A DNA stretch of 64,000 nucleotides from Actinocatenispora rupis (GTDB lineage Bacteria; Actinomycetota; Actinomycetes; Mycobacteriales; Micromonosporaceae): NCBI RefSeq assembly GCF_016861975.1, contig NZ_BOMB01000013.1, positions 1-64,000 on the forward strand. Direction: 5' to 3'. Below are positions 41,228 through 41,957 of the stretch, one piece after another (positions within the stretch are counted from its first letter, which is position 1; each line of letters begins with the position of its first letter). The translations under genes were made by a program, and so were the position numbers. The notes beneath the pieces are model-generated. The model worked only from the letters and a program-made list of their open reading frames with translations. It ran no database searches and had not been told where the DNA came from.

Positions 41228-41269
41228 CCCGCGCCGGTTCCCTTGCGCGGCAGGCGATCCGGGATAGGT

Positions 41270-41300
41270 GGGCCCGGCGGAGTAGCCTTCCGCCGGGCCC
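41270..41300. terminator. bidirectional terminator between truA and the tRNA-like array
   Basis: Perfect 12-bp GC stem (41270-41281 with 41289-41300) with a 7-nt loop, between the convergent truA (ends 41227) and the last tRNA-like half (minus strand, ends about 41310). It marks the 3' end of the array transcript and shows that no further tRNA 3' half follows the last 5' half. Confidence 0.85.
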
Positions 41301-41309
41301 GTGGGATAT

Positions 41310-41377
41310 TCGACTGCTCTACCGATTGAGCTAACCGCGCGAAGCGCGGGGGAGGACTCGAACCTCCAACCGGTCGA
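41310..41377 (-). tRNA. permuted tRNA-like gene 3 (3' half before 5' half)
   Basis: Read on the minus strand. The 3' half comes first: anticodon-stem strand TCGAC (41377-41373), variable loop CGGTT, T arm GGAGGTTCGAGTCCTCC (41367-41351), acceptor strand CCCGCGC (41350-41344). A TTC linker follows. Then the 5' half: GCGCGGT, U8 A9, D arm GCTCAATCGGTAGAGC (41331-41316), A26, anticodon-stem strand GTCGA (41314-41310). Acceptor pairs 1-72 to 6-67 match, with a U7-C66 mismatch; the anticodon stem matches 5 of 5. From position 1 to 33 the half follows canonical tRNA numbering exactly, including A14, A15, G18, G19, A21 and U33. No downstream T arm exists, so only permutation can build a tRNA. If the halves join at 33/34 the anticodon would read GUU, but this is uncertain. 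Confidence 0.72.
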
Positions 41378-41437
41378 TCAACGACCCGTCGCCGATTTGG
41401 TAGCGCCGACACGTTTAAGAGCGGGATCATCCTGTGG

Positions 41438-41539
41438 GCCCACGACTCTGCCATTGAGCCTACCGCCCGTCGGGAGAACCGTTGCGGCGCAACGGTTCCC
41501 GTGAGCCGGGCGGGCCGGATTCGAACCGGCAACCTGGGC
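41438..41539 (-). tRNA. permuted tRNA-like gene 2 (3' half before 5' half, hairpin linker)
   Basis: Minus strand: anticodon-stem strand GCCCA (41539-41535), variable loop GGTT, T arm GCCGGTTCGAATCCGGC (41530-41514), acceptor strand CCGCCCG (41513-41507), G73. A 36-nt linker (41505-41470) contains a near-perfect AACCGTTG hairpin. Then the 5' half: CGGGCGG (41469-41463), U8 A9, D arm GGCTCAATGGCAGAGTC (41460-41444), G26, TGGGC (41442-41438). Acceptor pairing is 7 of 7 and anticodon stem 5 of 5 between the two permuted parts; the 5' half does not pair with any T-arm half downstream of it. If joined at 33/34 the anticodon would be GAC, though position 33 would then be C rather than U. No CCA is encoded. 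Confidence 0.7.
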
Positions 41540-41619
41540 CTGTCGTCCGTACTCCCTCGATTCGACACTCGGCGAGAATGCTGATCCTGGAGCGATAGCG
41601 TGAACGTGACTCGGTGTCC

Positions 41620-41718
41620 GGGACTGCCTCTGCCAGTTGGGCTATCCCGTCACGAGTGACGGGAGGAGGACTCGAACCTCCACTGTGGACCCGGCGCCTG
41701 GAACGCGCGGGTCATCCC
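41620..41718 (-). tRNA. permuted tRNA-like gene 1 (3' half before 5' half, long variable arm)
   Basis: Minus strand: probable anticodon-stem strand GGGAT (41718-41714), then 32 nt that fold into a strong hairpin (a type II-like variable arm), T arm GGAGGTTCGAGTCCTCC (41681-41665), acceptor strand TCCCGTC (41664-41658), A73, linker CTCGT. The 5' half follows: GACGGGA (41651-41645), U8 A9, D arm GCCCAACTGGCAGAGGC (41642-41626), A26, GTCCC (41624-41620). Acceptor pairing is 7 of 7; the anticodon stem has four Watson-Crick pairs and one G-U. The T arm is identical to that of gene 3. Bases before GGGAT read GGACA, which would give anticodon GGA (Ser, consistent with a long variable arm), but U33 is missing, so the anticodon is unproven. 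Confidence 0.66.
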
Positions 41719-41957
41719 TGTCCGCGCGACCCTGGTTCAGGCTGAGCATCAGTCTCAGTCTGCGCTCCTTGGCGCGGGGTCAGCATAACCGTTGCGGGCA
41801 AGGGGATCGAGCGCTTTCCCGCCGCCGCACTCCGGACCACCGTCGCGACACGGTACCTGTGCGACGTGGCCACGCACGACTGGCGCCACGCGGATCCGGC
41901 GTCACGCGGAGCCGGAGCGACGTGCCACGTAACCGATGCGGCGCGAGCAACCCGTGT

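Follow-up and report, generated by a model that had tools for sequence, protein, structure and literature searches.

Sequence comparison points to the three tRNA-like units on the minus strand of the 64,000-nucleotide stretch of Actinocatenispora rupis DNA analyzed here (the window) being domains of one structured RNA of ≈500 nt on the 3′ side of a DUF7873 gene, rather than separate genes. We consider it probable, at roughly 0.65, that the product of this locus is a single long, structured noncoding RNA that stands beside DUF7873 and acts like a bacterial Y RNA without Ro60. Permuted tRNA mimicry is already known from Ro60-associated Y RNAs; here the same cap recurs, usually two or three times per RNA, alongside a different protein, in a distinct system that is widespread and extends from actinobacteria to large phages, and no Rfam family attains its cutoff at the locus. 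The covariation, the anatomy, the caps, and the linkage to DUF7873 are all supported at the level of sequence.

The permuted array and the RNA that contains it

Read on the minus strand from 41718 to 41310, the array consists of a T-arm half followed by a D-arm half, three times over, as the first-pass annotation of this DNA had described. Unit 1 (41626..41681) comprises a T-arm (41681–41665), an acceptor 3′ strand (41664–41658), a linker (41657–41652), an acceptor 5′ strand (41651–41645), and a D-arm (41642–41626), all on the minus strand. The same order recurs on that strand in unit 2 (41444..41530; T-arm 41530–41514, acceptor 3′ strand 41513–41507, acceptor 5′ strand 41469–41463, D-arm 41460–41444), where the linker is 37 nt long (41506–41470), and in unit 3, which together with its half anticodon stems spans 41310..41377 (T-arm 41367–41351, acceptor 3′ strand 41350–41344, linker TTC at 41343–41341, acceptor 5′ strand 41340–41334, D-arm 41331–41316). 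Each acceptor 3′ strand pairs with the next 5′ strand at 7/7, 7/7, and 6/7 positions in units 1, 2, and 3, respectively, and with the 5′ strands of the other units at only 2–4 of 7. This acceptor matrix confirms the three units and rules out the assembly of conventional tRNAs from the array, a further claim of the annotation that we uphold. Pairing of the half anticodon stems is likewise borne out by reading the sequence, at 5/5 in unit 2 (GCCCA/TGGGC) and 5/5 in unit 3 (TCGAC/GTCGA; 41377–41373 with 41314–41310).

The pattern used by our own detector comprises a T-stem and T-loop, a 7-nt acceptor strand, a linker of 3–89 nt, an acceptor with at least 6/7 pairs, two nucleotides, and a D-stem with GG. 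Across both strands of the 64-kb window, it recovers exactly three permuted units, all inside the noted array, with T-stems starting at 41681, 41530, and 41367. Unit count alone is not rare, as at least three units arise somewhere in 16/300 dinucleotide shuffles of the window; clustering is rare: 0/300 shuffles place three units on a single strand inside 500 nt, and 2/300 place two there. Searches of the window with ARAGORN, and with Rfam at the gathering score, returned nothing.

The array lies ≈400 nt 3′ of, and on the same strand as, the only DUF7873 gene of this genome (PF25283; 42120..42851, minus strand), which encodes 243 amino acids plus a stop and matches the Pfam model with E = 7.9e-119 and 396.2 bits (cutoff 27). 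By open reading frame reading, the genes on the opposite strand are what we take to be rpsM-rpsK-rpsD-rpoA-rplQ-truA. No RNA-binding domain was recognized in DUF7873, comparisons with solved structures, PHROGs, PADLOC, and NCBIfam gave nothing convincing, and defense models matched none of the three proteins scanned. A relationship between DUF7873 and TROVE/Ro60 was discarded, as hhalign gave a probability of 0.1% over 8 columns and hence no profile similarity. We found no paper in the open-license literature that names DUF7873, and among the articles on permuted tRNAs or tRNA-like phage RNAs listed there, none describes this RNA in its title or at the start of its abstract. The RNA is the first candidate partner for this protein family of unknown function.

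The structured RNA is predicted to extend over 41269..41776 of the minus strand, with its ends placed by conserved sequence, a TATGCT-like box on the 5′ side, and a hairpin on the 3′ side. It is conserved in three further loci (L035–L037), the TATGCT-like box lies immediately 5′ of the RNA in four same-genus loci, and the window RNA folds with z ≈ −3.9 relative to 50 shuffles. A consensus scan for a promoter or terminator at the RNA found neither. The sequence 5′ of the array belongs to the same conserved RNA, and the array does not start with a loose 3′ half as the annotation had supposed. At the other end, where the annotation placed a terminator, there is indeed a strong hairpin (GGGCCCGGCGGA...TCCGCCGGGCCC; 41270..41300, minus strand, read from the sequence), but it has no T run, and for that reason "terminator" is an inference only; the hairpin, which occupies the same place in relatives, is likely a terminator or a terminal structural element. 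A GGMYAY motif, often in the 3′ hairpin loop, occurs 40–200 nt past the unit 2 D-arm in 87/110 RNAs, a count made without a background control, and could represent an additional element.

When the window RNA is folded as a single sequence, units 2 and 3 take shape and unit 1 is mispaired; the structure proposed for unit 1 draws on comparison with relatives. The third unit is present in the window and in three same-genus genomes. Single-sequence folding also predicts a hairpin of ≈12 bp within the acceptor linker of unit 2 (41470–41506), and the units of diverged Vibrio and Rhizobium phages have long linkers too, hairpin-like in appearance.

Conserved helices and permuted units in relatives

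In the consensus fold of 110 nonredundant RNAs, a P1/P2 arm bears unit 1 and a P6-P5-P4 arm bears unit 2, an anticodon stem–like helix lies under each cap, and the internal loop AUCGA/CUUAAACG between P5 and P4 is conserved. The second arm corresponds in the window to module 2 (41380..41581, minus strand), which combines the covarying helices P6, P5, and P4 and this internal loop with unit 2. It matches R1, a covariance model of module 2 built from 27 sequences, over its full length at 94.7 bits (E = 3.3e-32); unit 1 gives a partial match of 40.1 bits, and unit 3 scores 42.4 bits. P4 and P5, which played no part in unit detection, are paired in 92.8% of cells, and 15/15 of their pairs are changed on both sides. 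Their covariation score is 0.694 versus 0.271 ± 0.021 for shuffles and at most 0.190 for slid copies, in a control that is not phylogeny-aware. Conservation and compensatory changes, which the annotation had proposed seeking in relatives, were looked for and found.

Alignments A4 and A5 draw on 28 representatives out of 38 short-linker loci, with L166 omitted from A4. Most of the P1/P2 arm shows sequence conservation, and the smaller alignment A5 did not return it; the 110-RNA consensus fold and the hairpin variants of unit 1 argue for its existence. In these variants, identified by reading and folding, a plain hairpin replaces unit 1 on an intact P1 arm in ten bacterial RNAs (eight from Streptomyces and two from other genomes of the class), found among 14 chosen sequences rather than by a systematic count. 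Unit 1 is missing from the viral loci L208 and L233 as well, where the fold is less clear.

Permuted units concentrate behind DUF7873. Across 139 loci, 203 units were counted within 900 nt on the 3′ side of the gene; the first 900 nt of the loci yielded 2, as did shuffled copies. After exclusion of 11/160 loci that have no recognized DUF7873 stop, the detector places two units within these 900 nt in 84 of the remaining 149 loci, one in 51, and none in 14, several of which do carry units that it missed. Acceptor counts from the detector are biased because it requires at least 6/7 pairs. When the D-arm motif was picked independently (314 units in a redundant set of 210 sequences), the acceptor paired at 7/7 in 295 units, at 6/7 in 12, and at fewer positions in 7, with a mean of 6.87 pairs versus 4.44 after swapping acceptors between loci. 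Two units were found in 129/210 downstream sequences, leaving 110 once duplicates were removed.

Distribution in bacteria and phages

Because most loci were found through DUF7873, RNAs without this gene would be missed; the genome-wide R1 search of 200 genomes of the family, taken to be Micromonosporaceae, is the one test independent of finding loci in that way. At ≥60 bits, R1 detects the RNA in 90/200 genomes, and 90/90 of these have DUF7873, which is itself present in 93/200. Of the remaining three DUF7873 genomes, G007 and G156 have a match of lower score at the gene, and G064 has a fragment of DUF7873. At E ≤ 0.01, matches appear in 180/200 family genomes, and the weak ones inspected are tandem tRNAs or units beside TROVE genes; extra matches in the window's own genome are mostly ordinary tRNA clusters, and R1 can score as high as 44 bits where tRNA genes are dense (L227). 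A blastn search with the array matched 87/200 family genomes. Near DUF7873, core matches (units 1 and 2) start 75–396 nt 3′ of the gene and on the same strand in each case, and three core matches have no nearby DUF7873 (G059, G136, and G177), in a table that leaves out 20 short rows and includes TROVE places in part.

In a sample across the phylum, DUF7873 is found in 7/396 genomes, the window's own counted, and bacterial and archaeal genome contigs hold at least 490 relatives, the 80 most query-like of which are the genome loci we analyzed. Among these best 80, R1 matches at ≥100 bits at 76, gives a weak match only at L088, and finds nothing near DUF7873 at L082, L083, and L090 (Chloroflexi, Herpetosiphon). 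The RNA-bearing bacterial loci in this set include Actinomycetota, Ktedonobacterales, one Deinococcales, and one Armatimonadetes assembly; some are MAGs and possibly misbinned. Among 14 control genomes, DUF7873 occurs in Deinobacterium chartae alone, and so does TROVE. Apparent ordinary tRNA genes stand close behind the DUF7873–RNA cassette at four bacterial loci (L041–L043 and L045) and one viral locus (L233).

Phages carry the system too, with DUF7873 in 73/50,697 phage records and 222 relatives in viral contigs. At the best 80 of these viral loci, R1 matches at or near the gene in 77, at ≥56 bits in 70 and at 38–49 bits in 7 (L185, L201, L205, L209, L223, L232, and L236), and a match is missing at L178, L179, and L210. 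There are two exceptions in placement: L215, with the RNA 5′ of the gene, and L231, with the RNA on the other strand. Ten phage records were inspected individually, and in nine of them a permuted unit or a match to the model lies on the 3′ side of DUF7873; the match in the Microcoleus phage record scores 36.9 bits and lies ≈2 kb from DUF7873, and the Vibrio phage record reaches just 16.3 bits with R1, yet a unit with 7/7 pairs is present. The location is among several annotated tRNA genes in 5/10 records (Phendrix, Mimi, NiceHouse, RHph_TM21B, and Vibrio K479), a placement that hints at a tRNA-centered conflict. The tRNA array of Gordonia phage Phendrix that holds DUF7873 and the RNA also contains an Rfam tmRNA match of 89 bits (L071:1072-1600), where the record annotates nothing. 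The record of Klebsiella phage Centimanus carries a "tRNA-Stop(tta)" annotation that overlaps the RNA (L078:4013-4096) and is likely a miscall, a warning that RNAs of this kind are missed or mislabeled by tRNA finders.

Comparison with Y RNAs and competing explanations

When the threshold is relaxed, YrlA (RF02553) is the Rfam family that best matches the array, with 40.1 bits (E = 2e-7) at unit 3, 21.2 at unit 2, and 20.8 at unit 1 against a gathering score of 69. In ten relatives, the YrlA model matches module 2 in nine (24.7–38.2 bits) and unit 1 only in the tenth (L214, 24.6 bits); scores of ≈25 bits are not specific, and one of 25.7 falls at a tmRNA/tRNA place in L199. The bacterial Y RNA 6CU1 and the tRNA-like domain of YrlA can be superposed on tRNA if the order is circularly permuted, according to an excerpt of PMC11472068, a precedent overlooked by the first-pass annotation, which knew of no permuted case in bacteria. 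Excerpts of PMC8394870 and PMC7790460 further describe YrlA as binding Ro60/Rsr and a Deinococcus Y RNA as tethering PNPase, and the latter suggests a role for YrlA as a competitive inhibitor versus an anticodon nuclease. Like YrlA, the RNAs described here present a permuted T-arm, a closed acceptor hairpin, and a D-arm that together cap an anticodon stem–like helix. Unlike YrlA with its one cap, they usually have two, with three in the window's genus and one in some; they measure roughly 400–500 nt by our own estimate, in contrast to the 90–150 nt given for bacterial Y RNAs in the excerpt of PMC8394870; their core helices are different; and DUF7873 takes the place of Ro60.

A search for TROVE/Ro60 in the window's genome gave no match at E ≤ 0.001, and TROVE is missing from 51/90 RNA-bearing family genomes. 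It is found in 61/200 family genomes, 41 of which also have DUF7873; because this co-occurrence is above chance (Fisher p ≈ 1e-4, uncorrected for kinship), a functional or mobile link between the two is possible. A permuted unit lies 5′ of the TROVE gene in 10/10 of the best TROVE loci (start codon located in seven), which makes the cap a device common to Ro60 and DUF7873 loci. The units just 5′ of TROVE in these loci (L269–L278; for example, L277:588-674 and L275:629-689) all miss 69 bits too, so the YrlA gathering score is a strict test, and for actinobacteria the model in Rfam looks overly narrow. Of 18 unit 3–like blastn rows, 10 (in nine genomes) are ≈0.8–1.1 kb from TROVE, 3 are beside DUF7873, and 5 are near neither, as judged from partial lists. 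As for the Ro60-binding stem that the two ends of bacterial Y RNAs form, flanks of the GCCCGGTGC/GACTTGATCTCGGGC type are common in TROVE-adjacent RNAs and were not seen, by eye only, around the window units. We dropped the idea that the AUCGA/CUUAAACG loop corresponds to the Ro60 region of YrlA, as the sole alignment viewed (L170) did not align these parts. Comparing the two systems makes what Y RNA caps bind testable.

In the Y RNA–like reading that we prefer, the long P1/P2 and P6-P5-P4 helices are each topped by a permuted tRNA-like cap, formed by a T-arm, a looped acceptor stem, and a D-arm on an anticodon stem–like helix. The RNA would be transcribed, and DUF7873 would bind its core, perhaps at the AUCGA/CUUAAACG internal loop, to make a Ro60-independent RNP. 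By mimicking tRNA, the caps could hold or distract a tRNA-recognizing factor, whether a nuclease (PNPase, for example), an enzyme that modifies tRNA, or, in phage–host conflict, an anticodon nuclease, and several caps would provide several docking heads per RNP. This scaffold reading is weakened by the acceptor linkers, which keep NCCA and C-R-U signals not obviously needed by a merely closed cap. Short linkers (5–12 nt) follow the pattern N73-C74-C/T-A/C...C-R-U(−1), with C74 in 84–100%, C at −3 in 96–100%, and U at −1 in 33–100%, depending on the group. CCA occupies positions 74–76 in 48/110 unit 1 and 30/110 unit 2 linkers versus a background of 1.7%, and it persists across 19 and 18 different acceptor stems, respectively. 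The signals could be either a closed-loop binding motif or RNase P and CCA signals. If RNase P opens the acceptor loops, the trimmed or CCA-tailed products would form a base-paired, multipiece RNA with chargeable tRNA-like ends, as in two-piece tmRNA, where the acceptor, too, unites a 5′ half with a 3′ half that precedes it in the gene. The linker pattern, the excess of CCA and its retention over so many stems, the near-constant C at −3, and the U at −1 in 16/16 short viral unit 2 linkers all favor such processing. Set against it are a unit 3 linker of just 3 nt, a U at −1 in merely 33–41% of bacterial short linkers, the replaceability of unit 1 by a plain hairpin, and the failure of tmRNA models, and we regard it as unlikely. 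To our knowledge, no processing of Y RNA acceptor loops has been described. Also unlikely, in our estimate, is a more ambitious version in which DUF7873 and its multiheaded RNA constitute a new RNP class, RNase P opens the permuted loops, CCA is restored and aminoacylated, and two or three chargeable ends are shown to translation or to tRNA-handling enzymes in bacteria and phages. A tmRNA proper was rejected, with no gathering match and cyano_tmRNA the best at 11.9 bits versus 70; the likeness to two-piece tmRNA lies in the swapped halves that make an acceptor and in the NCCA traces of the linkers, whereas canonical D-arms and several tRNA-like domains set the present RNAs apart.

Algae and archaea possess circularly permuted tRNA genes in which the tRNA 3′ half is encoded ahead of the 5′ half, and the first-pass annotation took the array for permuted tRNA-like genes, with RNAs cleaved in the acceptor linkers and either joined or left nicked at the anticodon loop; true permuted tRNA genes would in this way yield working tRNAs, as in Cyanidioschyzon. 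The gene order, the near-complete pairing of T, D, acceptor, and anticodon stems, and the discriminator and CCA traces fit that proposal, and the tRNA-like, circularly permuted, and conserved character of the units stands; they are better read, however, as domains, serving as caps, of a larger DUF7873-linked RNA than as genes. The junctions conserve neither U33, with T at nucleotide 33 in 14/110 (unit 1) and 20/110 (unit 2) RNAs when A26 and a 5-nt stem are counted, nor an anticodon, with the commonest unit 2 triplet at positions 32–34 in 23/110. Moreover, the flanks of unit 2 run on into covarying helices, unit 1 is swapped for hairpins in some relatives, and conventional tRNAs with five Leu and three Gly anticodons are encoded in the window's own genome. 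Cutting and joining is left unsupported by these observations, and we reject permuted tRNA genes as a very improbable explanation. The loci scanned showed no tRNA-Phe, for which a contig end may be the reason. Fifteen conventional tRNA genes are clustered on one contig (G000:C48:38900-41200, L318), possibly as a mobile tRNA array.

A phage origin deserves more weight, albeit as a doubtful alternative: the RNA and DUF7873 would derive from phages with tRNA arrays and work chiefly through titration of host enzymes that cut or modify tRNA, and the cellular copies would be domesticated. Their occurrence in phage records, often in the neighborhood of tRNA genes, and the inhibitor role suggested for YrlA versus an anticodon nuclease (excerpt of PMC7790460) are in keeping with a decoy, whereas the many relatives in bacterial and archaeal contigs, the position of the window copy beside a gene read as truA, and the lack of defense model matches to the three scanned proteins are not. 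That the units are functionless debris of tRNA genes, left after integration or duplication, has a negligible chance of being right. Ordinary tandem tRNA arrays do match R1 weakly (C48 and C10), but P4/P5 covariation already contradicts this reading, as do the regular spacing and the linkage across several phyla and phages.

GOLLD, ROOL, OLE, and HEARO are, like the RNA beside DUF7873, large structured RNAs of bacteria and phages, but none of them matches the window locus. GOLLD is reported in tRNA arrays in an excerpt of PMC9569102. HEARO occurs in the Microcoleus phage locus, where it lies 3′ of DUF7873 but away from the permuted-unit match.
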